Of a stretch of DNA of 64,000 bases, positions 30,853-62,662 are shown piece by piece. Numbering within the stretch: position 1 is the first letter of the stretch; every line of letters starts with the position of its first letter. The notes beneath the pieces are model-generated. The model was given only the letters and a program-made list of their open reading frames with translations, was not told the origin of the DNA and searched no databases. Origin of the DNA: Methylophilaceae bacterium 11. Lineage in GTDB: Bacteria; Pseudomonadota; Gammaproteobacteria; Burkholderiales; Methylophilaceae. The translations under genes and the position numbers were made by a program. The stretch covers positions 1,488,001 to 1,552,000 of the forward strand of contig JCKJ01000001.1 of NCBI GenBank assembly GCA_000525025.1. Reading direction: 5' to 3'.

Positions 30853-30867
30853 GCAGGAAGTGTGCCA
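30853..30867 (-). promoter_or_regulatory. candidate sigma-54 promoter, TonB siderophore receptor
   Basis: Minus strand TGGCACACTTCCTGC, with GG-N10-GC spacing and TGGCAC at -24. The leader to the ATG is about 150 bp. Confidence 0.55.
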
Positions 30868-31307
30868 ACTAAAAAGATATTGAATATCAATGGGTTGAAA
30901 ATATCGACACGCGTTGTTGCTTAAATAACAGCAGAGATTTGAAACAACTGTTTCTATGGAAACATGATAGAGGATGACTGTCTGGGTCATCCATCACCAG
31001 CAATAAATCTGGGAGACTAGCTGATCATGCCAATGTTTAGCCTAATGACTGCTTTATATCATTTTAAGCATATAGATATGACTATTAATTATTTTTAATT
31101 ATGAGATGAGTTTGCTAATGTGCAGTCATCTAAATTCCGGCCTACTGATGCGCGTACTCAATACGAGGTATTTGGGTACTAGGTATTGGGCAATTGGCAG
31201 CCATTGATTTGAAGTCTGACTAGCGCTAGACTTCAACGGCCCTTAACTGGCTTGATACACTAAAGTTAAAGCACTCTTTTACTATTACATAACAGAACCA
31301 ATCAACG

Positions 31308-32108
31308 ATGAAAAAAACCTATATTGCAGTACTCTTTTTAACTACTTTTTCTTTATATGGTTACGCGGCAGATATAGCGTCAGTCAACGGAAAACCGATT
31401 AAACAATCTCTGGTGGATTATCTTGTCAAAGATGTCAAAGACTCAGGCAACATAGTAGATGATAATGTACGGGCAACTATCGTTGATAAACTGATTACGA
31501 ATGAGTTACTCAACCAAGAGGCCTTAAAAGCTGGTGTAGAAAAGCGACCCGATTTTTTAGCAAAAGAAGAATTGGCTTTATATGACTTGCGCATAGAGGC
31601 TTATATTGCAGACTATATCAAGAAAAATCCGATTGATGATAAAGCGTTGCAGGCTGAATATGAGCGTCAAAAAACCATATTTAAGGGTAAGGATTACAAA
31701 GCCCGGCACATTTTAGTAAAAACTGAAAATGAAGCCAAAGACATCATTAAGCAGCTCGCCAAAGGCAGCGATTTCGGTGGCATTGCCAAAGAGAAATCTA
31801 TTGATACGGGTAGTGCCGAGAATGGTGGCGATTTAGGCTGGTTTCAGCCGGAAACTATGGTGAAGCCATTTAGCGATGCAGTGGCAAAACTAGACAAAGG
31901 CGCCTACACAACAACGCCAATACAAACAGATTTTGGATGGCACGTGATTAAGCTTGATGACACCAGAACTGTGCAACCAGTGTCGTTTGAATTAGCAAAA
32001 GGTGAGATAAGAAAGCTTTTGGTCAGAGAGCAGTTAATCAAGTTAGTCAGTGACTTAAAAGCCAAGGCCACCATTGTGAATAACAGCAGTGTGAAAGCTG
32101 AGAAGTAA
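31308..32108 (+). CDS. periplasmic peptidyl-prolyl isomerase, parvulin/PpiC type
   Basis: 266 residues with a signal peptide (FLTTFSLYGYAA, cut near residue 21). An N-terminal SurA-like chaperone part (22-115) is followed by a parvulin domain: KARHILVKTENEAKDI, GSDFGGIAKEKSIDTGSAENGGDLGWF and FGWHVIKLDD. It assists folding of exported and outer-membrane proteins, which suits a locus rich in TonB receptors. First of four plus-strand genes (ppiC-like, methyltransferase, VOC, sulfhydrylase), 46 bp before the next. Confidence 0.93.
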   Translation: MKKTYIAVLFLTTFSLYGYAADIASVNGKPIKQSLVDYLVKDVKDSGNIVDDNVRATIVDKLITNELLNQEALKAGVEKRPDFLAKEELALYDLRIEAYIADYIKKNPIDDKALQAEYERQKTIFKGKDYKARHILVKTENEAKDIIKQLAKGSDFGGIAKEKSIDTGSAENGGDLGWFQPETMVKPFSDAVAKLDKGAYTTTPIQTDFGWHVIKLDDTRTVQPVSFELAKGEIRKLLVREQLIKLVSDLKAKATIVNNSSVKAEK

Positions 32109-32154
32109 GATTACATCGTACATTTAATCAATTCAGAAGGCGCATTTATCCATC

Positions 32155-33051
32155 ATGTCTATCGTCAACAGCAGCCCCACACATGCTAAGTCTCATATTG
32201 CATTGACGACATTGCTTTTGCTTTGTTTAAGCGCTTGCAAGAGTGTTGCTCCATCAACAACGGCAATCTCGCCAGCTAACACCACATTGAGTAAAGCACG
32301 TATTGCACAGATTATTGCCAGCCCTGACCGCAGTGCAGCAGATAAAGCCAACGATGTGCGAAGAGAACCGGCGCTAACGCTTGCGTTTATTGGCGTTAGG
32401 CCTGGTGCAATTGCTTTAGATTTGAGTGCTGGTGGTGGTTACACTACCGAACTATTAGCGCGCGCAGTTGGATCAACTGGGCGTGTTTATGGACAAAGTG
32501 CGCCTAAAAACCTGAGCAATCAACAAAAGAATGGTGTGGCGCCAGAAGGCAATGCAACGCCTGCAATTACCCGCAATACTGAACGCGCAGCCCCTCAACC
32601 ACGACGCTCCTCTCCAGAAGCATTGGCGGAACGTGCTAAAAATCCAACTGTCAGCAATATTATTCCGGTTGTAAGAAGCTTTGAGGACCCTGTGCCTGAC
32701 GAGGTGAAACAAAATGGCTTGGATATTGTGACGCTCATGTTTAACTATCACGATATTGGGAACACCAATGTCAATCGAACAACTATGAACCGGGCAGTGT
32801 TTTCTGCACTTAAACCTGGCGGCATCTATGTGATTGCTGACCATTCAGGTCTGCCTGGTACTGGCATTTCTCAATCGGGTACGCTACACCGCATCGAAGA
32901 GCATTTTCTTCGTGAAGAAGTTGAGTCTGTGGGCTTTCAATTTGTGGCGCAAGGGAATTTTTTACGCAACCCTGCTGACCCGCGCGATAAAAATACACCT
33001 GAGCCACCGCAGCCAAAAGATGAGTTTTTTCTGAAGTTTGTCAAACCGTAA
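32155..33051 (+). CDS. predicted SAM-dependent methyltransferase, lipoprotein-like
   Basis: 298 residues. A hydrophobic leader ending LLLCLSACKS has a lipobox (C28 region). The Rossmann core shows AIALDLSAGGGYTTELLARAVGSTGRVYG (split here) corresponding to motif I, later DIVTLMFNYHDIGN and LKPGGIYVIADHSG. It belongs to the group of predicted exported methyltransferases (COG4798 type) whose substrate is unknown, and a methyltransferase in the periplasm is itself odd because SAM is cytoplasmic. It may instead be a repurposed fold. Confidence 0.8.
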   Translation: MSIVNSSPTHAKSHIALTTLLLLCLSACKSVAPSTTAISPANTTLSKARIAQIIASPDRSAADKANDVRREPALTLAFIGVRPGAIALDLSAGGGYTTELLARAVGSTGRVYGQSAPKNLSNQQKNGVAPEGNATPAITRNTERAAPQPRRSSPEALAERAKNPTVSNIIPVVRSFEDPVPDEVKQNGLDIVTLMFNYHDIGNTNVNRTTMNRAVFSALKPGGIYVIADHSGLPGTGISQSGTLHRIEEHFLREEVESVGFQFVAQGNFLRNPADPRDKNTPEPPQPKDEFFLKFVKP

Positions 33052-34866: not shown

Positions 34867-34900
34867 AAAAAAGCCACACTTTACTAGGTGTGGCTTTTTT
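34867..34900 (+). terminator. bidirectional terminator
   Basis: AAAAAAGCCACAC / GTGTGGCTTTTTT, a 13-bp stem with an 8-base loop. It serves metY and the convergent cytochrome operon. Confidence 0.93.
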
Positions 34901-35525
34901 AGCTTTGTGAAAGATTACGAAGCTTTGCATAGGTGGGATTGATATTTTTACTTCCTAATGATTTCCAAGCCAATGGTTTTGTATCGTTAGGATACCAATA
35001 GGTTGAGTGGCACTGCTCACAAGCATGTTCAATTTTCTCCCCTGCTTTTAGCAATGCATCTGGATTTTTCTCCTCTATTGCGGCCAAGGCTAGTTTCGCT
35101 GCGTTTTGCAACCCTATGGCTTTTTCGGAGAAGTCTTTCTGGTTACGTTGTATGGCCTTTTCTATCTCTTTTGGATCTAGCTCCACAGGATGAATAGAAG
35201 TGCTGGCTCCGGCGACTGCCACTGTGCGGTTAGGTATTTGCAATAGATTCCCCGCCTCTATTAATACAATCGCATGATTTCTTAACGTCTGCCACTCAGC
35301 ATCCGTAGTGGGCACTTTTTCTATCACACCCTCTTTGGTTGCTATAGTTGAAACTGAATTCCAAATCGGATCAACGTTCGGATCGATCACAGAAAGCATG
35401 ATCTCTTGCAATGTTGCAAATGGTTTAATGCCTGCTGCTTCTTGCGCTTGATGATTAGTCTCACTGCAAGCAGTGAGCACACCAACACTTAACCACGCCA
35501 AAAAAAATACGATACTTCTTATCAT
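34899..35525 (-). CDS. lipoprotein cytochrome c with one heme
   Basis: 208 residues. A lipobox at SVGVLTAC (C20) anchors it to a membrane. Helical middle part, one heme motif C169-E-Q-C172-H173 and a following tryptophan/tyrosine-rich YWYPNDTKPLAW, a c556/c'-like arrangement with the heme near the C-terminus. It is the last of three genes with two related small membrane proteins and may hand electrons to or from them. Partner and substrate unknown. Confidence 0.85.
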   Translation of the reverse strand: MIRSIVFFLAWLSVGVLTACSETNHQAQEAAGIKPFATLQEIMLSVIDPNVDPIWNSVSTIATKEGVIEKVPTTDAEWQTLRNHAIVLIEAGNLLQIPNRTVAVAGASTSIHPVELDPKEIEKAIQRNQKDFSEKAIGLQNAAKLALAAIEEKNPDALLKAGEKIEHACEQCHSTYWYPNDTKPLAWKSLGSKNINPTYAKLRNLSQS

Positions 35526-35589
35526 TATTAACCTTTTTAACTTTTATTTAAAAATCACTCATTTAAGAAACGACTAGTTTAAGAAACCA

Positions 35590-36066
35590 CTAATTTAAGA
35601 AACCTATGGCACGACCAGCAAAGGCGACGCCAAACCATAAGGTCAAAGACAACACTGCGGTGATACTCGCCAATATACGATTAGGTGACTCCAAGCTCGT
35701 CACTTTTCGATAAAGTGTGAACTGGATAACCAACGCTAGCCCAAGCAAAATAAATTTGAGCCAAAATGCGGGGTTAGGGTAATAAAGTGAAGCACTGGGC
35801 AGAAAAATAAATAAACCGGATAGCAATAACAGCAGAAAGCCATAAATAACCAGCGGCTTTGCGGCCTTGGCCAACTTAGGGATTGGTTGCTTGCTCAACC
35901 CTAAACCGATTAGCCTTAAATTAACCAACAAAATGGCGGTTAAAATCAGTAGAAAACCAGCAATATGAAACAATTGCGCTAACGCCCCTGCAATAGCATC
36001 TAACTGGCTGATGGATTGGCTTAAACTACTACGTTGTAACTCGTTGAATAATGATTCTGTGCTCAT
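35590..36066 (-). CDS. four-helix membrane protein, paralogue of the next gene
   Basis: 158 residues with four helices: AQLFHIAGFLLILTAILLVNLRLIGLGL, a PLVIYGFLLLLLSGLFIFL helix, a FWLKFILLGLALVIQF helix and a last one. It aligns along its length with the neighbour (H-x2-G..., NLRLIG vs TDLRLIG, PxVIYGFLLLLLSG vs PWVLSGFLITFVTG), and both keep a histidine in helix 1. Both resemble the DUF6644 family. Function unknown; the shared His and the adjacent cytochrome suggest heme binding, which is a guess. Confidence 0.8.
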   Translation of the reverse strand: MSTESLFNELQRSSLSQSISQLDAIAGALAQLFHIAGFLLILTAILLVNLRLIGLGLSKQPIPKLAKAAKPLVIYGFLLLLLSGLFIFLPSASLYYPNPAFWLKFILLGLALVIQFTLYRKVTSLESPNRILASITAVLSLTLWFGVAFAGRAIGFLN

Positions 36067-36084
36067 GGTTTTCTCTTATCAAAA

Positions 36085-36588
36085 TTAATGTTGTGTGGCT
36101 TCTAAATAGGGAATCAAACGACCGCAAATCACTACCGCCGTCCAAGAGGTAAGCGATACCCAACCTGCCAACTTAGCGCCTTTAGGAAACTGGGGCTGTA
36201 CACCCCACACATGGATGGTTCTGCCATATTTGTACTCAAACCAAAGCGCATTCAAACCGGCAAGCACAATCAGTACTAACTTGAGAGGGAATACTGGAAT
36301 CTCCCAAATCCTTGGTCCTTCCGCCCACAGCAATAAAACACCTGTCACAAACGTAATTAAAAATCCGCTTAACACCCATGGCCTTAATTGTTTCAGCACA
36401 TCGGCTACTGGCACTTCTTTTAAAAACCAACCAATCAGGCGTAAATCGGTCACAATGATCAGGCCAACCGACAGTGCAAGACCAATCAGATGCACACCTT
36501 CTAATAATGGAAACATATAGAGCGATTCTCTAAGCGCGGTTCCAAACGCGGAATCATGTAATTCTTGTAAAAATGATACGACTGACAT
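36085..36588 (-). CDS. four-helix membrane protein, DUF6644-like
   Basis: 167 residues, four helices. Helix 1 has MFPLLEGVHLIGLALSVGLI with His, followed by VTDLRLIGWFL; helix 2 is PWVLSGFLITFVTGVLLLW; then PLKLVLIVLAGLNALWFEY and a C-terminal GWVSLTSWTAVVICGRLIPY. First of the operon with its paralogue (18 bp on) and the lipoprotein cytochrome c. A sigma-54-like element sits 79 bp upstream. Function unknown. Confidence 0.82.
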   Translation of the reverse strand: MSVVSFLQELHDSAFGTALRESLYMFPLLEGVHLIGLALSVGLIIVTDLRLIGWFLKEVPVADVLKQLRPWVLSGFLITFVTGVLLLWAEGPRIWEIPVFPLKLVLIVLAGLNALWFEYKYGRTIHVWGVQPQFPKGAKLAGWVSLTSWTAVVICGRLIPYLEATQH

Positions 36589-36666
36589 TCAATTCTCCCT
36601 TAGTAATTCATCAAACACATCGAGTACTTATCTGCACTCAATATAGGTGCCATACCTATCGATATA

Positions 36667-36681
36667 GCAGTTGCCATGCCA
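36667..36681 (-). promoter_or_regulatory. candidate sigma-54 promoter, membrane protein/cytochrome operon
   Basis: Minus strand TGGCATGGCAACTGC, GG-N10-GC, 79 bp before the ATG at 36588. An ATAGG-N7-CCTAT dyad follows at 36643-36659, at about the start of the transcript. Confidence 0.6.
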
Positions 36682-36799
36682 ACCCTTACGAATCAGAAAA
36701 AACCATTGAATAAAAAACTAACTTGTTGATTTTTATATACAAAAAATCAATGTATCTAGAGAAAAACTACTGGTGGTCAATAAAAGTATTTAAGATTTT

Positions 36800-36816
36800 G
36801 TTGCTATAGAAGCAAC
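36800..36816 (-). promoter_or_regulatory. candidate activator site
   Basis: GTTGCT-ATAGA-AGCAAC, a perfect 6-bp dyad about 120 bp upstream of the sigma-54-like element, the usual distance for an enhancer-binding protein. A TTGCT-N5-AGCAA copy is found at 48920-48934. Confidence 0.4.
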
Positions 36817-37041: not shown

Positions 37042-37929
37042 TTAAGCTAAATGCTGGCGGAAAAACGCTACCGTACGCTCCCATGCCAGCTTAGCGGCAG
37101 CCGCATCATAACGGGGTGTAGTATCGTTATTAAAGCCATGCTGTACTTCTGGATAGATAAACGTTTGGTAATTCACTTTTGCAGCTTTTAATGCAGCCTC
37201 GTACTTAGGCCAGCCTGCATTGATGCGTTCGTCCTTACCAGCGTATTGTATTAACAGTGGCGCTTTAATTTTTGCGGCCTCTTCTTCAGTCGGTTGACCG
37301 CCATAAAAGGGTACTGCTGCCGCTAAATCTGGCAAGCGTGTTGCAAGAAAATTTGCAATCCCACCGCCATAGCAAAAACCAACCACCCCTACTTTTCCAT
37401 TGCCTTCAGGTAAGTTTTTCAGCACACCTGCTGCTGCCACAAAGTCCTCGCGTGTTTTGGTTTGATCCAGCTTTTGGAATAACTCACGCGCTTTATCCTC
37501 ATCACCTGGGTAGCCCCCTAGTGTGAACAAAGCGTCTGGCGCAAAAGCAATAAAGCCATCCACCGCCAAGCGTCTCGCAATATCTTCAATATGCGGGTTG
37601 AGGCCACGATTCTCATGCACGACCAACACAGTAGGCAATTTACCTGTGGCCTTGGCTGGAGATACCAAGTATCCACGCAACTTGCCATTGCCATTGGGTG
37701 ATGGATACTCCACATATTTTGCTTGAATGCGCACATCATCCTCATTAATTTGCTTGGCTTCAGCAAAACTTGGGCTGAGCGATTGCAATAATGCAGAAGC
37801 AGAAACACCTGCAACAGCAAATTTACCAGCGCGATTCAAAAAATCTCTTCGTGTAATATCACCATGTACAAATTGGTCAAACAACCCCAAGACTTCCGGG
37901 TGAAAATCATTCACAGTTTTACGGGTCAT
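37042..37929 (-). CDS. Tat-exported dienelactone hydrolase family protein
   Basis: 295 residues. A twin-arginine signal TRRDFLNRAGKFAVAG (R27-R28) after an unusually long n-region of 26 residues points to folded export to the periplasm. The hydrolase core has the Cys nucleophile in VGVVGFCYGGGIANF (C186), an Asp in AGKDERINAG and the His in EVQHGFNNDT, the C-D-H triad of dienelactone hydrolases. The substrate is probably a lactone or ester. It lies 36 bp downstream of the rhodanese/SMP-30 gene, whose beta-propeller family also includes lactonases, so both may act on the same compound. Confidence 0.92.
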   Translation of the reverse strand: MTRKTVNDFHPEVLGLFDQFVHGDITRRDFLNRAGKFAVAGVSASALLQSLSPSFAEAKQINEDDVRIQAKYVEYPSPNGNGKLRGYLVSPAKATGKLPTVLVVHENRGLNPHIEDIARRLAVDGFIAFAPDALFTLGGYPGDEDKARELFQKLDQTKTREDFVAAAGVLKNLPEGNGKVGVVGFCYGGGIANFLATRLPDLAAAVPFYGGQPTEEEAAKIKAPLLIQYAGKDERINAGWPKYEAALKAAKVNYQTFIYPEVQHGFNNDTTPRYDAAAAKLAWERTVAFFRQHLA

Positions 37930-37965
37930 GCTATCTCCAGTAATTTCTCAATTAATTTCTGTGCA

Positions 37966-39315
37966 CTACTTCGCGCGACCTAAATAGCCTTGGGCTAATA
38001 AAGGAATGCGGTAAGCAGCACCTCTACCAACCACAAAAAGCGTTTTCTTGTCTTTACCAGCAAACGCTAAGTTCTGAGGTTTATTTGGCAATGCAATCAC
38101 GCCCAAGGTTTCACCTTTTGCACTAAACACTTCCACACCTGCGTTCGTCGCTACGTACACTCTGTTTTCTGAGTCTACAGCAAGTCCATCCGCACCACTT
38201 GAAAACTCACCTGTGGCATTTTTAGAATAACCTGCTAATTTGGCAAAATTGCGTTTTGCACTTAATGCGCCATCGGCTTTAATGTCATAAGCAATGACAA
38301 ACTCATTGGCAGTATCTGCCACATACAATGTTTTTTCATCTGTACTTAACTGCACACCATTTGGACGTTTAAGATCATCAATCACACGCGTTGTTTTACC
38401 ATCTGGCGTAATGTAATAAACCGCTGGTCGCGCTGCCTCAGCTGCTTTATCTTCTGGTTTTGGCACAATGCCAATATCCGTAAAGTAAATGCCGCCTTTT
38501 TTATCTAGCACCAAGTCATTCGGGCGTTGGAACGGTTTGCCATCAAATTGATTAGACAACACCTTTTCCTTACCTGCCGGGTAAATAATACCGACTTGTG
38601 GTTTCAGATTTTGTACTGAAATCAGCTCACCCTTTGGGTTGAAAGCCAAACCATTGGAGCCATTACTATTTTGCAAGAAAATAGAAATGCCACGATCATC
38701 TTTCAATTGCGTAATGCGGTTTGCGCGGGTTTCAGTAAAAATAGCAGAACCATCTGGTAACGTAATTGGGCCTTCTGTGCCTTCAAAACCTTCGTACAAA
38801 AATTCGTATTTAGTCCCTTTAGCAATGACGCCAGGAATATCTTTATTCACTTCATACTTAGGTGCTGGCGGCGCAATTTTAGTGAGCACACCACCTTCAG
38901 CCTCGTAATCTTGTGCGCCAATAGCACCCGCTACTTTAAAGCCTTTGTTGATCAAAAAGTCTGCACCAGCATGCGCGCGGCCTGCATGGTTGGAGATGGT
39001 CGCAATTGCTTTGTCTTTAGGAATATAGTCTGCGTATTTTTCAAGCTCTTTGGCTTGGATATTCAAATATACGGGGAAACCACCAATCTTAATCAACTCA
39101 TCTGGGCGACGCAGATCGATTAACACCACGTCGTTTGGCTTAGCTAATAATGCATCCACTTCTGCACGGCTGAGTTTTTTTGAGATAGGTGGTTTTTTAG
39201 CTTCTTGACTAGCAGCCTGTGTATCCACTGCAGTAGTCCCAACAGCACCCCCTGCCAAAGCAAATGGTGAAGCCGATATAAATAATAGCGCGACTAATAC
39301 GTTAATTTTTTTCAT
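37966..39315 (-). CDS. exported rhodanese-like/SMP-30 (gluconolactonase-like) fusion
   Basis: 449 residues with signal peptide (FISASPFALA). Rhodanese-like domain at about 45-140 (LSRAEVDALLAKPNDVVLIDLRRPDEL, split), but the active-site loop reads TISNHAGRAH, with N109 where catalytic rhodaneses have Cys, so it is likely inactive. From about 160 the SMP-30 beta-propeller follows: EGPITLPDGSAIFTE, NGLAFNPKGELI, RPNDLVLDKKGGIYFTD, NGVQLSTDEKTLYVAD and GADGLAVDSENRVYV. These are metal-dependent lactonase motifs. First gene of the operon with the Tat hydrolase, with a strong sigma-54-like promoter 84 bp upstream. Confidence 0.9.
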   Translation of the reverse strand: MKKINVLVALLFISASPFALAGGAVGTTAVDTQAASQEAKKPPISKKLSRAEVDALLAKPNDVVLIDLRRPDELIKIGGFPVYLNIQAKELEKYADYIPKDKAIATISNHAGRAHAGADFLINKGFKVAGAIGAQDYEAEGGVLTKIAPPAPKYEVNKDIPGVIAKGTKYEFLYEGFEGTEGPITLPDGSAIFTETRANRITQLKDDRGISIFLQNSNGSNGLAFNPKGELISVQNLKPQVGIIYPAGKEKVLSNQFDGKPFQRPNDLVLDKKGGIYFTDIGIVPKPEDKAAEAARPAVYYITPDGKTTRVIDDLKRPNGVQLSTDEKTLYVADTANEFVIAYDIKADGALSAKRNFAKLAGYSKNATGEFSSGADGLAVDSENRVYVATNAGVEVFSAKGETLGVIALPNKPQNLAFAGKDKKTLFVVGRGAAYRIPLLAQGYLGRAK

Positions 39316-39398: not shown

Positions 39399-39413
39399 GC
39401 AAGGCGCATGCCA
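39399..39413 (-). promoter_or_regulatory. candidate sigma-54 promoter, rhodanese/SMP-30 operon
   Basis: Minus strand TGGCATGCGCCTTGC, matching TGGCAYG-N4-TTGC without a mismatch, 84 bp before the ATG at 39315. Confidence 0.65.
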
Positions 39414-39636: not shown

Positions 39637-41724
39637 TTATTTAAATGTGTAACGTAACCCTACTCTCACAGAACGCGGCTCTAAAGGATGCACTAGTCGC
39701 CCATCAATGCCTTCGCCACCGCCACAACCCGGACCATCGAGTTTTGTACAAGCACCGCCATAATATTCAATATCATTGGCTTTACGATTGAATACATTCA
39801 ATACACTTAAAGAGGCCTGCCATTGCGGATTAAATTTGTATTCCACTTTCGCATTCGCCGTCACAAATGAAGAAGATTGTTGTTTGCCCGTTTCTTCTAG
39901 CGGATAAGCGCCAATGTAACGCACACGTACGCCACCCGACCACTGATGGCCATCATCGAAATTAGCTGCCAGTGAAGCTGTGAGTGGCACCGCATTAGGA
40001 ATGTGTTTTCCACCACTTTCCAATTGATCAAAACGCGCTTTAGATAAAGCAATATCCGCATCTAAAAATAACCAATCTGTTGCAGTTAAGTGATTTGTCC
40101 ACTCAATCCCATAACGGTTTGAACTACCTCTTGGTTCCGTCACGCCCTCATCACCGACAAACACCAATTCCGAGGAGGATTTAACTTGCCACAACGCAAA
40201 GCTGGTATGCCATCCCGGTAAAGGTGCTGCGCGCAAACCGAGCTCACCACCCTTAGCCTTAGCAATCAGTGGCACACGATCAGCAGGACTACCATCGACC
40301 ACATTCTGTGAAATAACAGCCCCTCTACTGTCATTACTATGAAAGCCACGTCCCCAGTTAGCGTAAAACTCCAATGACTTCCAAGGCGCAATCGCAATAC
40401 CCAGTTTAGGGCTAAGCTGTCCTGCAGATGCTTGACCGCCATTATTCAAATTAAATACGCCCTCTTCAGCTTGGACATCGGTATCAATATAGTCATAGCG
40501 CAACCCAACAGTACTTCTTAGCCAAGATAGCCAAGGTGTCTTTATTTCGGAATACAAAGCACTTGCCGTTTGATGCACACGGTCTTGGCGCACGGTGTTG
40601 GTTCTGTCTCGATTCTCTGTGTCATACAAACCAAGCGTGCTGATGCGATCATGTCTGAGTTGTGTACCAAGACTCACTTCACTTTGGCGCCAATGCTCAC
40701 CTAAAAACCAGCGCTTTTCTAACTGCCCGCCCAATATTGTGCGGTGATCGGCTTGCTCATGTTGGTCACCCTGCGGACCATTGATAAAGCCTGAAGGGCT
40801 ACTAAATAAATTCAGACCATAATCAATGACCCAGGCATTTGCACGCCATGCTGATTCGTCACTGGTCTGATTCCACTCACCAGATAAACTGACACGATGC
40901 GTCTCCCCACCGTCATTGGGTAACAAGGTGCCGTAACGCCCAATCTCACCGCTATCAATGGCGCGTTTAGGCACATGCTCACTCGCGACCCAGCGACTGC
41001 GGTAGGCCATGCCTGTAATAGAGAAGCCATTGTTAGCTGTACCTGAAGATACACGCACCACACCGTTCGCTTTATTCAAGTTCTCCGGTTGATCCCAAGG
41101 ACCATCGTAACCAGCGAGTTCCAACGCACCAAGCCATTGCAAGCCATTCCATTCTTGGCTTCCAGCCGCCAATAGCCGTTTATATTGATACTCCCCTAAT
41201 GTCACATCCACAAAAGGTGCATCCAGTGTTTTTTTGTAATCAATGCGTGCTGAACCCGTGGTACTAAAATCACCATCCTCTGCTGCATAAGGGCCTTTTT
41301 GGTAACGTAACCCACCAATTAATTCCGGTATTAGAAAATTGACATCCATATAGCCCTGACCATGCGCATGGCTCACCATATTCACTGGCATGCCATTCAC
41401 ATAAGTGGCAAAGTCGCTACCGTGATCCAAGTTAAAGCCGCGTAAGAAAAATTGGTTCGCTTTACCATCGCCAGAATGTTGCGTCACAATCAAACCAGGC
41501 ACTGTCTCCATGACTTCACCTGGCCGTAAAAATGGGCGATGCTCAATTTGTTTTGCTGTGACCTTACCATCCGATGCTGAATCGGCAACGCCGATCAATG
41601 CATGGACTTCGGCGCGCACCTCTATCGCGGGGAGGCTAGCTTCTTCTTGGGAATAAACTGGGTGATGAACGAGTATGCCGAATGTGGATGCCAACAATGG
41701 CCACCCATACTGTTTTAACAACAT
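39637..41724 (-). CDS. TonB-dependent receptor next to an RcnR-like sensor
   Basis: 695 residues. Signal peptide to about 26, plug (about 30-160: FLRPGEVMETVPGLIVTQHSGDGKANQF and FLRGFNLDHGSDFATYVNGMPVN regions), barrel ending SVRVGLRYTFK. The plug type (GEVMETVPGLIVTQHSG) is that of the CirA/BtuB-like group with unknown ligands rather than the siderophore class. Close to the C-terminus a loop has two cysteines (GGACTKLDGPGCGGGEG). Its neighbour upstream is the RcnR-like nickel/cobalt-type sensor, suggesting metal-related uptake; the sigma-54-like element at 41821 lies 97 bp before the start. Confidence 0.9.
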   Translation of the reverse strand: MLLKQYGWPLLASTFGILVHHPVYSQEEASLPAIEVRAEVHALIGVADSASDGKVTAKQIEHRPFLRPGEVMETVPGLIVTQHSGDGKANQFFLRGFNLDHGSDFATYVNGMPVNMVSHAHGQGYMDVNFLIPELIGGLRYQKGPYAAEDGDFSTTGSARIDYKKTLDAPFVDVTLGEYQYKRLLAAGSQEWNGLQWLGALELAGYDGPWDQPENLNKANGVVRVSSGTANNGFSITGMAYRSRWVASEHVPKRAIDSGEIGRYGTLLPNDGGETHRVSLSGEWNQTSDESAWRANAWVIDYGLNLFSSPSGFINGPQGDQHEQADHRTILGGQLEKRWFLGEHWRQSEVSLGTQLRHDRISTLGLYDTENRDRTNTVRQDRVHQTASALYSEIKTPWLSWLRSTVGLRYDYIDTDVQAEEGVFNLNNGGQASAGQLSPKLGIAIAPWKSLEFYANWGRGFHSNDSRGAVISQNVVDGSPADRVPLIAKAKGGELGLRAAPLPGWHTSFALWQVKSSSELVFVGDEGVTEPRGSSNRYGIEWTNHLTATDWLFLDADIALSKARFDQLESGGKHIPNAVPLTASLAANFDDGHQWSGGVRVRYIGAYPLEETGKQQSSSFVTANAKVEYKFNPQWQASLSVLNVFNRKANDIEYYGGACTKLDGPGCGGGEGIDGRLVHPLEPRSVRVGLRYTFK

Positions 41725-41787: not shown

Positions 41788-41806
41788 GATAGGTGGGTAC
41801 CCTATA
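41788..41806 (-). promoter_or_regulatory. 19-bp leader dyad, copy 2
   Basis: Same 19 bases as at 30820-30838, again 15 bp from the -12 GC of a sigma-54-like element. The rest of the two leaders is not alike, so the match is selected rather than recent duplication. Confidence 0.65.
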
Positions 41807-41820: not shown

Positions 41821-41835
41821 GCAGAAACCATACCA
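41821..41835 (-). promoter_or_regulatory. candidate sigma-54 promoter, 695-residue TonB receptor
   Basis: Minus strand TGGTATGGTTTCTGC, GG-N10-GC, 97 bp before the ATG. T replaces C at position 4 of the -24 half. Confidence 0.55.
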
Positions 41836-41926: not shown

Positions 41927-41944
41927 CTGTTGCACTGACAACAG
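41927..41944 (-). promoter_or_regulatory. candidate activator site
   Basis: CTGTTG-N6-CAACAG, a perfect dyad about 92-110 bp upstream of the sigma-54-like element. It is also just downstream of the RcnR-like gene, but no T-tract follows, so a terminator is less likely. A near copy (CTGTTGCCTTAGAAACAG) is at 48987-49004. Confidence 0.4.
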
Positions 41945-41956: not shown

Positions 41957-42259
41957 TTATTTAAGATAGGTTTTTAGCACATTGATGACTTCGTCTAAAT
42001 CCCGCTGATGGCTAGCTTGCTGCACATCACTGTGATGAGATGAGTGGTCATGATGATGGTGTCCTAGATGTTCGCGAATATGCCCTTCAAGTGCTTCAGA
42101 CATCAAGCCATCAATAGCACCACGCACCGAGGCAATTTGGTGTAAAAAGTGTGCGCACTCCACACCCACTAACAGTGATTTTTCAAGTGACTCTACCTGC
42201 CCTTTAATACGACTGATACGCGCAGTTAATTTCTTCTTACTTTCTGTAATATGTGACAT
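41957..42259 (-). CDS. RcnR/FrmR-family (CsoR-like) metal-sensing repressor
   Basis: 100 residues from ATG 42259 (MSHITESKKKLTARISRIKGQ), with AGG 8 bp upstream; a TTG two codons earlier is in frame. It carries H3, C35, H60 and H64, the four-ligand set of nickel/cobalt-sensing RcnR, whereas formaldehyde-sensing FrmR has no His at position 3 or 64. An extra His-rich loop GHHHHDHSSHHSD at 67-79 is not in E. coli RcnR. It probably represses a nearby metal gene, and the dyad at 42277-42329 immediately upstream may be its site. Formaldehyde sensing remains possible in a methylotroph. Confidence 0.88.
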   Translation of the reverse strand: MSHITESKKKLTARISRIKGQVESLEKSLLVGVECAHFLHQIASVRGAIDGLMSEALEGHIREHLGHHHHDHSSHHSDVQQASHQRDLDEVINVLKTYLK

Positions 42260-42369: not shown

Positions 42370-42990
42370 TTAACTTTGATATTTAATAGAACAACCGTAT
42401 GGTTTAGTGCTCGGATTAGGTACTTTTTTGCCATCGGCAAGCGCAGCCCATGTTTCTCTCACATAATTGGTCGCTTTAGCAAGATCCTCTTTTTTAGCAG
42501 TAGGGATATTGTCAATGCCACCCTTGTAAACCAATACACCTTTTGCATCTATCACAAAGATATGTGGTGTGGTTTGCGCACCGTATAGTTTGCCAATTTT
42601 TCCATCCGTATCTAGCACAACATAAGCAGGTTTTGCACCGCGCTCTTCGTTCAGTTTCAATGCGGTTGCACCATCGACATGGCCTTGTTTACCTGGTGCA
42701 GAAGAGATGATTTGCACCCAGCTAATCCCTTTGCCCGCGGCATCTTTTTGCAATTGTGGAATATTGCCACTCTCATAGTGCTTCTTCACAAACGGGCATT
42801 CGTCATTGGTCCACTCCAGCACAACTGTTTTTCCACGTAAAGTGTCTAGATTAAATTTACTCCCATCTGCAGCAGTGCCAGTAAAGCCTGGTGCAGGTTG
42901 ATCCACTAGCGGGTCAGCAAACACTGCGATGGATGCAAATGCAAAGGCAGCAGTGACTAAACCTGTGGCGATAAATTGTTTGAATTGCAT
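42370..42990 (-). CDS. exported redoxin (AhpC/TSA-type thioredoxin fold)
   Basis: 206 residues with a signal peptide (AAFAFASIAVFA). Thioredoxin fold: LRGKTVVLEWTNDECPFVKKHYES with a single C65 in ECPF instead of CxxC, then QTTPHIFVIDAKGVLVYKGGIDN, and a second Cys (C200) seven residues from the end. This form is often encoded beside DsbD-like proteins, which would keep it reduced. Last of the GlcG, DsbD, redoxin run, 22 bp after DsbD. Confidence 0.9.
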   Translation of the reverse strand: MQFKQFIATGLVTAAFAFASIAVFADPLVDQPAPGFTGTAADGSKFNLDTLRGKTVVLEWTNDECPFVKKHYESGNIPQLQKDAAGKGISWVQIISSAPGKQGHVDGATALKLNEERGAKPAYVVLDTDGKIGKLYGAQTTPHIFVIDAKGVLVYKGGIDNIPTAKKEDLAKATNYVRETWAALADGKKVPNPSTKPYGCSIKYQS

Positions 42991-43012
42991 AAAAACTCCT
43001 TTTGATTAAAAA

Positions 43013-45181
43013 TTAATGGGATGATCGAATGTTGGATAACACGATTGATGGCGTGAGAATCTGCGGCAACTCGATAGGCTTTGCGTTGTTACCTGCAGGG
43101 TAAAATACATAAAGCGGCACACCACTACGTCCAAACTTACTTAAGAGATTCGTAATGTGTGCATCTTGATTGGTCCAATCCCCCTTTAAATAGGTAATGC
43201 CTTTTTGTTGAAAGGCATTTGTCACCTCTGGCTGGCTGAGTGCTACACGTTCGTTCACCAAACAGCTAATGCACCATGCCGCTGTAAAATTTAAAAACAC
43301 CGGCTTACCTTCAGCCAAGAGTATTGCTAACTTTTCTGGTGTATAAGGCTCCCAATATTGAGTCGGACTAGCTTTAACAGACTGACTAGCTGCTTCTGGC
43401 GTGGCATCGCCCAGATAAGCATAACTGACCACCAAAGTAGTAACGAGAACGAGAGCGATTCCAACGTTTGCCGCAATCTGATTTTTTAAAGAAATTAAGC
43501 GTGTTGTGTTATACAACCATGCCGCAAACGCTATCAATACCATGCCACCTAATGCCACCGCTACTCCATTGGCACCGACCTGCTGAGCGAGCACCCAAAC
43601 CAACCAAACCGCGGCTAAATACATAGGGAACGCAAATATCTGTTTGGTACGCTCCATCCACACACCAGGTTTAGGTAACTTACGATGCAAGGCTGGCCAT
43701 GCCGTCAACAACAAATAAGGCAATGCCAAACCCAAGCCTAGGCTAAGAAATACCAACATGAGTTTTGCCGAAGATTGTGTCAGCGCATAACCAAGTGCTG
43801 CGGCCATAAAAGGGGCTGTACAAGGTGTAGCAACAACGGTGGCTAGCACGCCTGTAAAGAAACTACCTGCGTAACCTGGTTTATCTGCTAGCGCACTACC
43901 TACTCCAGCAGTAGAGCCACCAATCGAAAATACGCCGGACAAACTGAGCCCGACGGCAAACATTAAATAAGCGACTGCAATCACAAAAAGCGGGGATTGG
44001 TACTGAAAACCCCATCCGATCTCTGCACCACCTGCTTTAAGCGCAATCAGCAGCCCTGCTAACAACGCAAAGCTTGCCAATACGCCAAGCGTATACACAA
44101 CACCCTGCGCCAAAATTTGGCGCTGAGAATAATGCTCATGACTCACCAAAGATAAGGCCTTGATAGACAACACAGGAAACACGCAAGGCATTAAATTCAA
44201 CACCACACCACCCAGCAATGCCAACAATAACGCGGTTGTAAACCCTAAACTGGAAGCATCCGCCTGAGCAGTTGTATATTGTGAAGCTGCACTTGTTGCA
44301 GATGCATACGCAATCAGTGGTGTGCTAATTTGATAGCCACGCGCAACCAATGCACTCCTTTGCTTCTCCTGCACAACCAATACGCCATCTAATGTTTCAG
44401 TTGGCTTTAATGGTGCATCGCCAAGTTGAAATGCAAGTTGGATACCCGCTTTCGTTATCGTTTTTGTTTGGTCTGCACTCTGCGCAATTTTTCCCCATTG
44501 ATACGGATAAAACCAAACATCCTGAATTGCTTCACTAGTTAAATCGGATGCTGCAACATGTAATGACAGCCCAGTTTTTGTAGCTTGCAAAGATACTGGC
44601 CAAGGCGCCGCTTGTGGTTGCTGTAATAAAGCTTGATGAAGCTGAGGTTGATGAGATGGGGCACCTGATGCAGGTGCTACCGTTGGCAAACCTACTACCA
44701 CTGGCATACTAAGGGCTAAAGTCACTTGCTGAGGAATGCACTCCTCTTTGCATACCAGCCAATCGACTATCGCTGTCGTCTTAAAGGTTTCGCCAGATTT
44801 CAGGTTTGCAGCAACTTTCACCTTCACCGGCAAGGTCACTTCATCTTCATAGCCGTAATTAACAATTGGCCCCATTTTGAAACGATGAGGAATCGGCCAC
44901 AGAATCTCCCCCACTTCGGATGGCTGAGAAAATTGCCAATCCACAGTCGTCACGGTGCCAGAGTCACCAGGGTTTTGCCAATACATGTGCCAATGCGGAA
45001 TGATTTTTAAGTGCACACCGAGTGTAATCTCTTCACCTGGTGCGACTTTGCTGACAGAAGATACTAACGCTGCTTGCACTTGAGGCGTGCTGGCTTGGTG
45101 CGATGCCGCCCACACCAAAGGTATGTGGCACATTGCCAATACCAGTGAAATTAACCGCAACAAATTCAATACTCGCGTCAT
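43013..45181 (-). CDS. DsbD/ScsB-like thiol:disulfide interchange protein
   Basis: 722 residues. N-terminal periplasmic domain with C144/C148 (WLVCKEECIPQ); membrane domain of about eight helices carrying VVLNLMPCVFPVLSIKAL and VVATPCTAPFMAAALGYA, whose Cys pair carries electrons across the membrane; C-terminal thioredoxin domain with FTAAWCISCLVNERVAL (C637, C640). It passes reducing power from cytoplasmic thioredoxin to periplasmic partners. It starts 5 bp after the GlcG gene and is followed by the redoxin, its likely client. Confidence 0.94.
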   Translation of the reverse strand: MTRVLNLLRLISLVLAMCHIPLVWAASHQASTPQVQAALVSSVSKVAPGEEITLGVHLKIIPHWHMYWQNPGDSGTVTTVDWQFSQPSEVGEILWPIPHRFKMGPIVNYGYEDEVTLPVKVKVAANLKSGETFKTTAIVDWLVCKEECIPQQVTLALSMPVVVGLPTVAPASGAPSHQPQLHQALLQQPQAAPWPVSLQATKTGLSLHVAASDLTSEAIQDVWFYPYQWGKIAQSADQTKTITKAGIQLAFQLGDAPLKPTETLDGVLVVQEKQRSALVARGYQISTPLIAYASATSAASQYTTAQADASSLGFTTALLLALLGGVVLNLMPCVFPVLSIKALSLVSHEHYSQRQILAQGVVYTLGVLASFALLAGLLIALKAGGAEIGWGFQYQSPLFVIAVAYLMFAVGLSLSGVFSIGGSTAGVGSALADKPGYAGSFFTGVLATVVATPCTAPFMAAALGYALTQSSAKLMLVFLSLGLGLALPYLLLTAWPALHRKLPKPGVWMERTKQIFAFPMYLAAVWLVWVLAQQVGANGVAVALGGMVLIAFAAWLYNTTRLISLKNQIAANVGIALVLVTTLVVSYAYLGDATPEAASQSVKASPTQYWEPYTPEKLAILLAEGKPVFLNFTAAWCISCLVNERVALSQPEVTNAFQQKGITYLKGDWTNQDAHITNLLSKFGRSGVPLYVFYPAGNNAKPIELPQILTPSIVLSNIRSSH

Positions 45182-45186
45182 TCTAA

Positions 45187-45726: not shown

Positions 45727-45769
45727 ATGTATCCTTTTCTATTTATAACTTAGTAATTCATAAGCAGAA

Positions 45770-49163: not shown

Positions 49164-49178
49164 TGGCATACATTCTGC
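49164..49178 (+). promoter_or_regulatory. candidate sigma-54 promoter, cytochrome b561
   Basis: Plus strand TGGCATACATTCTGC, GG-N10-GC, 95 bp before the ATG at 49274. Confidence 0.55.
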
Positions 49179-49993: not shown

Positions 49994-50041
49994 TCCATTG
50001 ATAACGCCAATTTTCAACCACCATTTATTAGAGGACATTAA

Positions 50042-50509
50042 ATGAAAAAACTAAGCCTGTTACTCACATCATTAGCACTACTGAATGCGAGCTATGCTTA
50101 TGCAGGACCCATAGAAGACCAGATTAAATACCGCCAATCGGCTTATTCATTTATTGGCTGGAATACCAATAAAATCAAATCACAATTAGATAAGCCAGAA
50201 ACTTTTTCTAAAGAAGATGTGATTGCTGCTGCTAATGCGATTGCTGCTGCCGCAAACTCTGGCTTAGGCGCGTTGTACGGCCCAGGCACAGACCAGGGCG
50301 AAGGCTGGCATAAGACACGTTTAAAACCTGAGTTCTTTCAAAAACCAGAAGAAGCCAAAAAAGTAGCCATTGCTTTTAACTTAGAGGCGAATGAATTTGC
50401 CAAAGTCGCGGAAACTGGTGACCCTGTACAGATTAAAGCGAAATTTGGAAAACTCACGCAGTCATGCAAAGCCTGCCATGACAGCTTCAGAGAAAAAGAC
50501 CCCAAATAA
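50042..50509 (+). CDS. cytochrome c' / c556-type periplasmic cytochrome
   Basis: 155 residues with signal peptide ending SYAYA (about 21). Four-helix-bundle sequence (QIKYRQSAYSFIGWNTNKIKSQL, MAFNLEAN-like KVAIAFNLEANEFAKVAE) and the heme motif C142-K-A-C145-H146 near the C-terminus, typical of class II cytochromes. Class II cytochromes may bind NO or transfer electrons. Paired with the b561 gene. Confidence 0.93.
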   Translation: MKKLSLLLTSLALLNASYAYAGPIEDQIKYRQSAYSFIGWNTNKIKSQLDKPETFSKEDVIAAANAIAAAANSGLGALYGPGTDQGEGWHKTRLKPEFFQKPEEAKKVAIAFNLEANEFAKVAETGDPVQIKAKFGKLTQSCKACHDSFREKDPK

Positions 50510-59795: not shown

Positions 59796-62606
59796 TTAAA
59801 GTTTGCTACTAAATACAATACCTACCCAACGCGGTAATGTAGGTGTGTAGCTTGCAAAGCCCTCAGGGTTATATTTTTTATCAAATGCATTCTTCACCAG
59901 TAAGTTTGCATCAAATAATCCATCTTTACGACCTAAGCCAATCGCAAAATCCACAAGACCATAACCATCCACCTTGTCGTACTCAGATGTGCTTGTATAG
60001 TAACTGCTGGTGTAGTTGTAATTGACATTGGTGTGGAAAATCTTATCGCCCAGTACTGGCAATGTATACCCAACAAATAAGTTAGTTGTAAACTTAGGTG
60101 CTCTTAATAAAGTATCGCCATTTGCATTGTAGAACCTTCTGTTAGCTGGCAAGGTTCCAGGATTCGTCTCACTTCTGAAAGCAATATACGTATCATCTGC
60201 ATACCGTGCATCGTTGTAAGCCCCTGCAAGCCTAAATGAAAAGTGCTCGATGCCGTTATAGGTAGCATCTAACTCCACACCTTTTACACGTATTTTAGGT
60301 ACGTTACCCACTTGGCTAATATAGGCCTGGCAATCAGCACCTGTACAACTTGTAGTAGCCGCATTCACCGCAGTTTGCACAGGGTCAACATTGACCACCG
60401 TTGTTTGAAAGTCTTTGACTTGGCTAATGAATGCACTTGCATTGAGCAACAAATCATTATTGAGCAAACTGGTGCGCACACCAAACTCAAGTGCAGTCGT
60501 GCGCTCTTTATCTATTAGATCAGAAGCACCTCCCGCATTCACTTGCGCAATGCCGCCTTTTTCACCGTACTGCAGAGAACCAAATACAGTGACATCCTCA
60601 TTGAGCTTATCGGTTAAAGTAATATTGGCTGTATGTACATCGCCTTTCCAAGGCTTAGCTTTGGTGATTGGGTACAACGAACCTGGCTGTAACGTACCAT
60701 TTCTCACCCTAGCAGCGTCACGTAATAGCGTTTGATTAGGTGCACCAATACCTGCATAAGTGGAGCCTGCGCCAAAGTAGCGAGCTGCCAACCTATCAGC
60801 TGCTGCAATGGCCGCAGCTGAACCACCAATACCTGTGGTGGTCGCACTATTACCAAATGCAGTGGTGAGGTCACCACCAACACCTGGGTCGATTAATAAC
60901 AGCCCTTGTTTTGTATTGCGCTCTTCATACGAAACAGCATAGCCCGTGGTTAGGGTGAGTGGCTCAGATAAGTGCCAGTCGGCCGATGCATTTACGCCAA
61001 TACTTTTATTTTCAACAATCGTACTTGTGGTTCTATAAGCTAAATTCAGTGAGTCCCTGAGCAATGCTTGACCCGCTGCTGTACCACCTAAGCTAGTGTA
61101 TAGCGCATCACTGGCTTGGAATGCGCCAGCATCGCTACCATAACGCGTGCGGCTACCAAATGAATCATTATCCGTTTTTAAGAAAATCAAGCCGCCTTGA
61201 TAATCAACTAGGCTTTTATCATCTTTTATCGAGTTGATTCTGAACTCTTGGCTCAGTTGTTTATAGTCTGTAATGTAGCCACCACTTTTGGTAATGTCGA
61301 ACGGTGTGCCTTCATCATTGGCAGCGCTAAACCAGTGGTTACGCCAACCGGTAATCGACTGCAACTCATGACCTAACACATTCCAATACAGATTCCCGGT
61401 AAGCCCCTCGGAACTCGTCACAATCGCACCATTGTTGTCTGTGTTGGTGATGTACTTATAGAAATCCGTCGATGGATTCCAGACGGCCGGCGCCTGATTA
61501 AACCAAGAACGGTTCACATATTTTTTATAGTTAACATCCACTAAACTTGCAAGTCTTGGCGTGCCGTCACTGTAAGCGCGTGGTTCAGGGTGCTTCACCG
61601 TATTACCGTTTTGATACTCAGACCCTTTGGGTTGAAGTTCATAGCTGATTTTGGCAGAAAAATTCTCTGTAGGGGTCAACAAAAATTGTATGCGGCCAAA
61701 AGTACGGTCAGTATTCTGATAGCTGGTACGCCCTTCTATATCTCTAAACTGTTCTTTAAATGGTCCATCTTGTTGCTCGCGTACAAAGCTACCACGCCAT
61801 GCCAGTAAATCATCCACAATGGGGCCGCCTACTACGGCCTGCGTTTTTAATGTATGCCACTCACCATAGGTTTGGCTTGCTTTAGCCACAGGTTGAAAGG
61901 TAGGCGCATTTGTTTTAAACGTGATTCGACCAATATTACTCGACAGACCTCCGGTAGTCCCTTGTGGGCCACGTGTTACATCGACAGTGTCAATGTCTGT
62001 ATAAATATAGCCGTTGGCCAATGGCGTATAGGCAATCCCCACGCCGTCAATCACTGGCACCACGGTAGGACCAATCTGATCGCTAGAACCAGTGGTCACT
62101 CCCCTTAAGGTTAAAGAACCTGTTCTGGGGTTGCCATAGTTAAAATTCACGTTACCAATACGCTTTAGCACTTCTGTCGCGTTTGTCGCTTGGAAAATAT
62201 TTAACTCCTCCCCACTCACAATCGAAACAGAAGCCGGTTTATCAGCCACTTTTTCTAATACACTTTTCCGACGGCTTGTCACAATCAATGCATCTAACTG
62301 GTTGGCATCCTCGGCATTTACGGTTTTATCTTTGGCAGTGCCGTTACTATTTGCGTTAGTCTCTGCACTATCCGCCCCTGCATTGCTTGAGTTTGTCTGC
62401 GTAGGTTGTTGTTTAGCAGTGGTGAGTTCTTGTTTTAATCGCGCAATTTCTTCACGGAGCTCGTTCACCAGTTGATCATCTGCCGCATAAACAGAAGTTG
62501 ACGCAACAAATGTCAAACTTGCCACTAATGCACTGATTGTTTTAAGCCTGTAGCTGGGTACGGCTGTCGGTATTTTTTGTTCTGATTGTTTCTTTAGTTT
62601 TTTCAC
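59796..62606 (-). CDS. TonB-dependent receptor with N-terminal coiled coil (type 2)
   Basis: 936 residues. Signal peptide cut near VYAAD (41), coiled coil (LVNELREEIARLKQELTTAK) and a Gln/Asn/Thr-rich linker to about 105. Plug (about 110-230) with DALIVTSRRKSVLEKVADKPASVSIV and VDVTRGPQGTTGGLSSNIGRI; note the altered GTTGG where most have GTLYG. Barrel ends VGIVFSSKL. Its linker, FGRIQFLLTPTENFSAKI and WRGSFVREQQDG match the 45880-48684 receptor, so the two are paralogues. Sigma-54-like element 42 bp upstream. Ligand unknown. Confidence 0.92.
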   Translation of the reverse strand: MKKLKKQSEQKIPTAVPSYRLKTISALVASLTFVASTSVYAADDQLVNELREEIARLKQELTTAKQQPTQTNSSNAGADSAETNANSNGTAKDKTVNAEDANQLDALIVTSRRKSVLEKVADKPASVSIVSGEELNIFQATNATEVLKRIGNVNFNYGNPRTGSLTLRGVTTGSSDQIGPTVVPVIDGVGIAYTPLANGYIYTDIDTVDVTRGPQGTTGGLSSNIGRITFKTNAPTFQPVAKASQTYGEWHTLKTQAVVGGPIVDDLLAWRGSFVREQQDGPFKEQFRDIEGRTSYQNTDRTFGRIQFLLTPTENFSAKISYELQPKGSEYQNGNTVKHPEPRAYSDGTPRLASLVDVNYKKYVNRSWFNQAPAVWNPSTDFYKYITNTDNNGAIVTSSEGLTGNLYWNVLGHELQSITGWRNHWFSAANDEGTPFDITKSGGYITDYKQLSQEFRINSIKDDKSLVDYQGGLIFLKTDNDSFGSRTRYGSDAGAFQASDALYTSLGGTAAGQALLRDSLNLAYRTTSTIVENKSIGVNASADWHLSEPLTLTTGYAVSYEERNTKQGLLLIDPGVGGDLTTAFGNSATTTGIGGSAAAIAAADRLAARYFGAGSTYAGIGAPNQTLLRDAARVRNGTLQPGSLYPITKAKPWKGDVHTANITLTDKLNEDVTVFGSLQYGEKGGIAQVNAGGASDLIDKERTTALEFGVRTSLLNNDLLLNASAFISQVKDFQTTVVNVDPVQTAVNAATTSCTGADCQAYISQVGNVPKIRVKGVELDATYNGIEHFSFRLAGAYNDARYADDTYIAFRSETNPGTLPANRRFYNANGDTLLRAPKFTTNLFVGYTLPVLGDKIFHTNVNYNYTSSYYTSTSEYDKVDGYGLVDFAIGLGRKDGLFDANLLVKNAFDKKYNPEGFASYTPTLPRWVGIVFSSKL

Positions 62607-62611
62607 TTCAT

Positions 62612-62645
62612 TTTCCCTTTGATTGATGACTAATCAGAAGGGAAA
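62612..62645. repeat. inverted repeat TTTCCCTT / AAGGGAAA
   Basis: 8-bp perfect arms separated by 18 bases, lying between the predicted -12 element and the start codon, so covering the predicted transcription start. A related AGGGAAAATA is seen in the leader of the rhodanese/SMP-30 gene (39358-39367). Function unknown. Confidence 0.5.
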
Positions 62646-62647
62646 TA

Positions 62648-62662
62648 GCAACTAGCATTCCA
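62648..62662 (-). promoter_or_regulatory. candidate sigma-54 promoter, 936-residue TonB receptor
   Basis: Minus strand TGGAATGCTAGTTGC; GG-N10-GC with TTGC at -12 and one deviation at -24 (A for C). It is 42 bp before the ATG. Confidence 0.6.

Follow-up and report, generated by a model that had tools for sequence, protein, structure and literature searches.

The stretch of DNA analysed here (the window) comprises 64,000 nucleotides of the methanol-using Methylophilaceae bacterium 11, positions 1488001-1552000 of the single 2.79-Mb contig of its genome (G000), and holds a cluster of TonB receptor and periplasmic redox genes preceded by elements of the sigma-54 type (GG-N10-GC; in the strict form used below, TGGNAYR-N4-YTGC). 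A first-pass annotation, made from the sequence alone, had listed seven such elements; all were present at their coordinates and on their strands, 41-160 bp before the genes assigned to them and pointing toward them (Table 1). These genes were also correctly named, i.e., four TonB receptors, a DUF6644 pair, an SMP-30 protein and cytochrome b561, and for the SMP-30 protein a phmmer search of solved structures also picked up the rhodanese half (1yt8, E=1.8e-5), which Pfam had missed at E<=0.001. Inside the cluster, directly upstream of receptor 2, lies a gene for a DUF156 repressor, a family comprising CsoR, RcnR and FrmR.

Table 1. Regulatory elements and genes of the cluster, in window positions; distances past promoters are counted from the end of TGC.
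Feature	Position	Strand	Details
Predicted sigma-54 promoter, receptor 1	30853..30867	-	TGGCACACTTCCTGC; orthologous sites in G003, G058
Predicted sigma-54 promoter, DUF6644 operon	36667..36681	-	TGGCATGGCAACTGC; orthologous sites in G003, in G058 and G084 (both relaxed form) and in G062
Predicted sigma-54 promoter, rhodanese/SMP-30 operon	39399..39413	-	TGGCATGCGCCTTGC; no good upstream palindrome in G000
Predicted sigma-54 promoter, receptor 2	41821..41835	-	TGGTATGGTTTCTGC; G084 site identical
Predicted sigma-54 promoter, receptor 3	48743..48757	-	TGGCATGGCTCTTGC
Predicted sigma-54 promoter, cytochrome b561/cytochrome c'	49164..49178	+	TGGCATACATTCTGC
Probable sigma-54 promoter, receptor 4	62648..62662	-	TGGAATGCTAGTTGC; weakest of the seven
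Activator palindrome, receptor 1	30949..30964		exact
Activator palindrome, DUF6644 operon	36799..36814		1 mismatch
Activator palindrome, receptor 2	41928..41943		1 mismatch
Activator palindrome, divergent receptor 3 and cytochrome b561 promoters	48988..49003		exact; common to both
Proposed repressor operator, ATAGG-N7-CCTAT	30821..30837		15 bp past receptor 1 promoter
Proposed repressor operator, ATAGG-N7-CCTAT	36643..36659		7 bp past DUF6644 promoter
Proposed repressor operator, ATAGG-N7-CCTAT	41789..41805		15 bp past receptor 2 promoter
DUF156 (CsoR/RcnR/FrmR family) repressor	41957..42259	-	100 aa; His3-Cys35-His60-His64; His-rich insert
PepSY_TM protein, receptor 1 partner	27115..28572	-	
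TonB receptor 1, CrtA-like	28587..30692	-	
DUF6644a, DUF6644b and cytochrome c'-like genes	34899..36588	-	
Rhodanese/SMP-30 protein and dienelactone-hydrolase-family protein	37042..39315	-	
TonB receptor 2	39637..41724	-	
Receptor 3, HbpS-like, DsbD-like and redoxin genes	42370..48684	-	receptor 3 at 45880-48684
Cytochrome b561 and cytochrome c'	49274..50509	+	
TonB receptor 4	59796..62606	-	

The strict pattern occurs nine times in the window, at the seven promoters and at 12869 (+) and 54059 (-), the last of these antisense within a resistance-nodulation-division (RND) permease gene. Dinucleotide shuffles of the window gave a mean of 2.08 matches and reached nine in 0 of 100 cases; of the 118 matches in the whole genome, 109 lie elsewhere, a density at which 64 kb should contain 2.56 (Poisson P = 0.0013). 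The reversed pattern is found only 37 times in the genome, against 118 for the pattern itself. The chance expectation of the first-pass annotation, about one match per window, was therefore some 2.5-fold too low, but its claim of a density far above chance holds despite this correction. When the genomic matches are taken in coordinate order, the first 30 comprise 23 in coding DNA and seven between genes, compared with eight intergenic matches out of nine in the window; so far as these 30 of the 118 go, the pattern is not equally dense in coding DNA, an outcome that the annotation had regarded as fatal to its proposal. Among the seven intergenic matches, three lie ahead of genes that we named by inspection of their translations, two as prepilin-like and one as a NasT-like regulator; genes of these kinds are classical sigma-54 targets. 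A pattern so degenerate, so frequent in the genome and, where sampled, mostly coding might be thought to reflect chance or base composition, but this is hardly credible given the excess in the window and the conservation of orthologous promoters in other genera (see below). The match at 12869-12883 (+) is intergenic, without an obvious target gene, and the same 15-mer, TGGCATATTAATTGC, is found again at C1:1116897.

To compare promoters among relatives, we used stretches from 13 genomes, in which 43 copies of eight lead genes (10 genomes), picked from the regulon of G000, were set against 262 other genes with at least 60 bp of upstream DNA each. A strict site precedes 28 of the 43 lead-gene copies and 14 of the 262 other genes, and shuffling the 43 regions leaves 0.08. 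The counts without G000 are fairer, because the pattern was derived from that genome: 20 of 35 lead genes against 14 of 237 others have a strict site (Fisher 2e-12), and 26 of 35 against 20 of 237 a relaxed one. Of the 14 controls that have a strict site, six stand beside a homolog of the activator described below (G008, G010, G013) and four are matched by cluster proteins. Since gene starts were taken from the longest open reading frames, some sites lie at or slightly within the assigned start.

G000 encodes one rpoN and shows ten Sigma54_activat matches above cut-off, seven of them strong (214-246 bits). The first-pass annotation had advised a check for enhancer-binding activators near the locus, and one that it had missed lies outside the window: the gene at C1:1556893-1558002 (-), among the seven strong ones, starts about 5 kb past the window end. 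The protein (370 amino acids) has a Pfam AAA+ domain from residue 47 with the GAFTGA motif and a C-terminal Fis-type helix-turn-helix match (HTH_8) below cut-off, and, like its homologs, it has no N-terminal sensor domain. The genome thus combines GG-N10-GC elements, correctly oriented before genes, with rpoN and an AAA+ activator bearing GAFTGA. Adjoining the activator gene on the same strand are tonB, exbB, exbD, a DUF6152 gene and three genes for related periplasmic proteins, the last of them inside the window; tonB, beyond the window, has its own strict sigma-54 site and palindrome. The activator gene is situated within the cluster in G000, G003 (a member of the same genus as G000), G058 and G084.

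Upstream of the sites we recognised a palindrome, TGTTKC-N4-GMAACA, which matches at 11 or 12 of its 12 positions at six of eight G000 promoters (the seven plus tonB). Outside G000, an exact palindrome was found at 11 of 26 promoters and in 5 of 231 controls (Fisher 4e-9), and a copy within one mismatch at 15 of 26 versus 8 of 231. At the 21 promoters with a good copy there is a modest preference for another one at a distance of 30-31 bp (z 2.9 at 30). For the receptor 4 site, whose best upstream match in G000 is 8/12, the main reason for acceptance is that sites are also present at its orthologs in G084 and G062. The palindrome is informative only in context, because the whole of G000 contains 64 copies within one mismatch against 32 for the control; with a looser pattern, the window alone gave no significant excess (14 versus 10 expected, 14 being reached by 12 of 100 shuffles). 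Other G000 palindromes that we looked at lie in or near genes without a fitting promoter, with two exceptions, and three exact ones are identical to parS, the ParB site. The two exceptions, each with one mismatch, are found 215 bp upstream of the sigma-54 site at C1:75922 and 279 bp upstream of that at C1:732657.

In other genomes, where an activator 67-68% identical has different neighbours, 12 sigma-54 sites were examined, of which four, one per genome in G008, G013, G010 and G022, have an exact palindrome upstream and two more an 11/12 match. That another of the seven strong activators drives the cluster promoters might be argued from the number of candidates and from G089, where promoters and palindromes occur without a close homolog of this activator, but the palindrome accompanies the homologs in these four genomes despite their different targets and the gene itself is part of the cluster in four genomes, so we consider a different activator very improbable.

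The activator resembles SfnR, the organosulfur activator. With SfnR-type activators of Pseudomonas and Burkholderia it shares the AAA+ and Fis-type parts and the lack of an N-terminal sensor, and it is 55% identical to a Burkholderia pyrrocinia regulator encoded beside sfnG, msuE and sfnB; the G000 cluster, by contrast, consists of genes for TonB receptors and redox proteins of the periplasm. The scanned G000 cluster proteins included no organosulfur gene product, and for this reason we use the name SfnR-like and stop short of calling the activator SfnR. A relative in Sphingobium stands beside ssuABC, ssuD and a TonB receptor gene, and plasmid relatives amount to 135 records, the best 57% identical. 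In G008 (L078:767-8838) the activator homolog adjoins genes for a flavin mononucleotide (FMN) reductase, two SsuA/NMT1-like proteins, an aldolase-II protein and an ATP-binding cassette (ABC) ATPase, together with tonB-exbBD and sigma-54 sites, a neighbourhood that is likely an organosulfur module. SfnR itself is reportedly CysB-regulated, to judge by the title of a study referenced in PMC8234197.

A second layer of control, which had escaped the first-pass annotation, is suggested by what appears to be a DUF156-type operator past three of the seven promoters and by the repressor gene inside the window. The inverted repeat ATAGG-N7-CCTAT occurs at exactly three places in the 2.79 Mb of G000, each 7 or 15 bp downstream of a sigma-54 promoter of the cluster; relative to the predicted start (about 12 bases past GC) it would extend roughly from +5 to +21 or from -4 to +13. 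The 7-bp spacing is kept at DUF6644 in G000, G003, G058 and G084 and the 15-bp spacing at receptor 1 in G000, G003 and G058, while at receptor 2 the distance is 15 in G000, 14 in G084, 12 in G089 and 15 in G003, where the -12 element is degraded. Outside G000, the repeat was found in 11 of 35 lead-gene regions and in 1 of 237 others (Fisher 4e-10), and this single control has a divergent region that it shares with receptor 1. Only the strict form is informative, since the looser ATAG-N9-CTAT occurs at 30 genomic places as against 58 for the control and adds none in the window. Recast in that looser notation, the repeat is 17 bp long with a 9-bp centre, the geometry of the Escherichia coli frm operator (ATAC/GTAT around 9 bp; PMC5146963); type I operators are inverted repeats around a GC-rich tract, and the GC content of the centre varies in ours. 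An RNA hairpin at the repeat was tried as a candidate and rejected: its arms pair in two of five folded leaders, at -4.3 kcal/mol, which is no better than in shuffles.

The repressor matches PF02583 with 67.4 bits (cut-off 22.8) and stays below both NCBIfam cut-offs, with 85 versus 133 for FrmR and 78.1 versus 138 for RcnR. A search of 120 genomes of the family (E<=1e-8) gave homologs in ten, and all ten have His3, Cys35, His60 and His64, the four residues also present in Salmonella RcnR (PMC5146963). FrmR requires Pro2 together with Cys35 (PMC5146963), and residue 2 is Ser or Ala, never Pro, in the ten homologs; because Pro2 is absent, we set aside formaldehyde sensing and an identity with FrmR. 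Strict repeats average 3.0 in the ten homolog genomes versus 0.9 in the 110 others (P = 0.0002, uncorrected for relatedness). Every cluster with a repressor (G000, G003, G058, G084, G089) has repeats, and in the 3-kb loci of seven homologs the repeat lies on the receptor 2 side in G109, G101 and G089, is farther off, before receptor 2, in G003, and was not found in the loci of the more distant homologs G004, G074 and G075. The cluster is present in G062, G066 and G057, which are not repressor-positive; no exact repeat was seen in their 57-60 kb stretches, and 2, 4 and 1 repeats, respectively, occur elsewhere in these genomes. G101 and G109 possess repressor, repeat and receptor 2 with no sigma-54 site there. 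The two layers thus separate in relatives, some having repressor, repeat and receptor 2 without sigma-54 and others sigma-54 clusters without repressor and repeat. In G101 (L170:12923-18239, -), the DUF156 homolog has genes for a CusA/CzcA-type efflux permease and its adaptor immediately on its upstream side and is itself followed by receptor 2.

If the sigma-54 regulon is real and the repeat is bound by another regulator or acts in the transcript, the DUF156 protein would be a bystander. Repeats in genomes that lack the repressor, and the distant homologs without one in their loci, fit such a situation, but the repeat tracks the close homologs, it lies between repressor gene and receptor 2 in three of them, it has the frm operator geometry, and as RNA it pairs no better than shuffled sequence; we therefore consider a bystander improbable. 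Compared with FrmR and RcnR and their type I operators, the G000 pair has in common the PF02583 domain and the 17-bp repeat with the 9-bp centre of the E. coli frm promoter (PMC5146963), and differs in that its repeat lies at the start of predicted sigma-54 promoters, its putative targets are receptors and the protein has a His-rich insert.

The regulon of uptake and periplasmic redox genes under RpoN that the first-pass annotation proposed gains support from the conserved sites in other genera, the upstream palindrome and the nearby activator gene. Our reading, drawn from sequence comparison, is that the cluster is probably a sigma-54 regulon with an SfnR-like activator, gated at three promoters by a DUF156 repressor, a judgement that leaves the cargo aside. 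The comparison itself demonstrates the elements, where they lie, how far they are conserved and that they go together with the genes of both regulators. What we infer about binding, activation, repression and signal would then run as follows. The seven elements would be -24/-12 promoters of one regulon that extends past the window end and comprises TonB receptors 1-4, the DUF6644/cytochrome, rhodanese/SMP-30 and cytochrome b561/c' genes and, beyond the window, tonB-exbB-exbD-DUF6152. The SfnR-like enhancer-binding protein would bind TGTTKC-N4-GMAACA about 70-250 bp upstream, often at two copies about 30 bp apart, and would remodel the waiting sigma-54 polymerase. At three promoters, those of receptor 1, receptor 2 and the DUF6644 operon, the DUF156 repressor would bind ATAGG-N7-CCTAT over the predicted start or immediately beyond it, blocking initiation or promoter escape until a ligand frees the DNA.

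Several observations weigh against this reading. Strict sites are missing in 15 of the 35 orthologous lead genes and relaxed ones in nine, namely tonB and receptor 2 in G003, two receptor 1 copies and DUF6644 in G066, one SMP-30 copy in G057, DUF6644 in G089 and receptor 2 in G109 and G101. In G000 the SMP-30 and receptor 4 promoters have no good palindrome; the palindrome was initially spotted by eye in G000 and relatives, its longer form then being tested in other genomes, and its counts are not fully independent, because divergent promoters share regions and copies. G089 has sites, palindromes and the repeat without a close activator (best 45%; the assembly has 160 contigs and 6% contamination). 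The repeat is found at only three of the seven promoters; in G084 one copy is some 180 bp upstream of the receptor 4 site and not past it, G003 has two of its six copies on other contigs, away from such promoters, the G101 stretch has one of its two in the efflux gene, and genomes without the repressor also have repeats (the mean of 0.9 given above). Finally, in the DUF156 family effector binding weakens DNA binding (PMC5016687), so that release of the repressor by its effector would mean that a metal switches on its own importer; in this cluster either the effector or the sign of control may be different.

As for the cargo, receptor 1 aligns over residues 27-699 with the copper importer CrtA of Bordetella pertussis (9rvq, E=7e-88; next best solved receptor 1e-38), and it is directly followed by a PepSY_TM gene, as crtA adjoins such a gene in more than 75% of loci (PMC12914433). 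By hand count on the alignment, Glu337 and the essential His358 of CrtA are kept as Glu320 and His341, Gln356, Arg395 and Tyr130 are replaced, and Trp265 apparently also (in our count this Trp is residue 266 of the chain), so that two of the six ligand-site residues, the His included, are clearly kept; of five copies of receptor 1, all have Glu320 and four have His341. Receptor 1 resembles the CrtA/BfrG copper transporters with their PepSY_TM partner (PMC12914433) in this alignment and in the gene next to it, and differs from them in four of the six ligand-site residues (Trp265 apparently) and in having a predicted sigma-54 promoter. No close solved relative was found for receptors 2-4. The likeness of receptor 1 and the PepSY_TM protein to the CrtA pair, together with the metal-type residues of the repressor, makes a chelated transition metal the most likely cargo in our view, with copper, given slightly less than even weight, as the first guess; this is the least certain step and stands outside our main confidence.

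Alternatively, the cluster might be a regulon that responds to sulfur limitation, chiefly through the SfnR-like activator, with receptors that take up organosulfur compounds and not metal chelates. Relatives of the activator beside sfnG/msuE/sfnB, ssu and, in G008, FMN reductase and SsuA-like genes speak for it, as do the rhodanese and thiol-redox proteins of the cluster. No organosulfur enzyme or SsuA-like protein was found among the scanned G000 cluster proteins, though, receptor 1 fits CrtA far better than any other solved receptor and the repressor residues are of the metal type, and we regard import of organosulfur compounds as somewhat unlikely. A lanthanide uptake theme was dropped, the literature among the matches listed concerning other methylotrophs and holding nothing that ties the cluster to lanthanides.

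The three related periplasmic proteins mentioned above are encoded at 62959-63984 (-) in the window and at L044:2098-3114 and 3166-3978 (-), and no Pfam family was found for them above cut-off. A lipocalin-like fold considered for one of them was not used, as the model had a mean predicted local distance difference test (pLDDT) score of 57.8 and PDB matches had E 0.025 or worse. Past the activator (L044:9641-18989, -) there are a two-component pair, ABC transporter genes, a GldG-like and a polyketide-cyclase-like gene, along with further genes reminiscent of accessory genes of pyrroloquinoline quinone (PQQ) alcohol dehydrogenases. An adaptor and two MdtB/MdtC-like RND permeases, encoded after cytochrome c' (50623-58251, +), are found again in the clusters of several relatives. 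The interval from receptor 2 to the SMP-30 promoter contains a hairpin followed by a T-run (39525-39570, -), well conserved in G084 and G058, not in G003; it is probably a terminator and possibly yields a 3'-end small RNA, and Rfam at gathering scores found no family in window positions 26000-64000, this hairpin included.

Sigma-54 promoters are usually regarded as controlled by activators alone, and among the literature matches listed no description of a DUF156 repressor at such a promoter was found. Predicted sigma-54 control of exbB in Xylella (PMC3224663) and of TonB in Flavobacteriia (PMC12316311) likewise places TonB-system genes behind predicted sites; these are predictions only, the Flavobacteriia case being still unconfirmed according to a 2025 survey (PMC12316311), and in the available text of the two papers no receptor set, activator palindrome or repressor layer is described. 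We see an evenly balanced case for a sigma-54 promoter class with a start-site DUF156 repressor, in which a sensorless SfnR-like 'on' input and a metal-type 'off' input meet at receptors for chelated metal (copper) and at redox proteins. If true, a conserved set of TonB receptors would show a start-site repressor combined with sigma-54 control, and regulator-cargo pairs would become testable for the four uncharacterised receptors, DUF6644, DUF6152 and the related periplasmic proteins.

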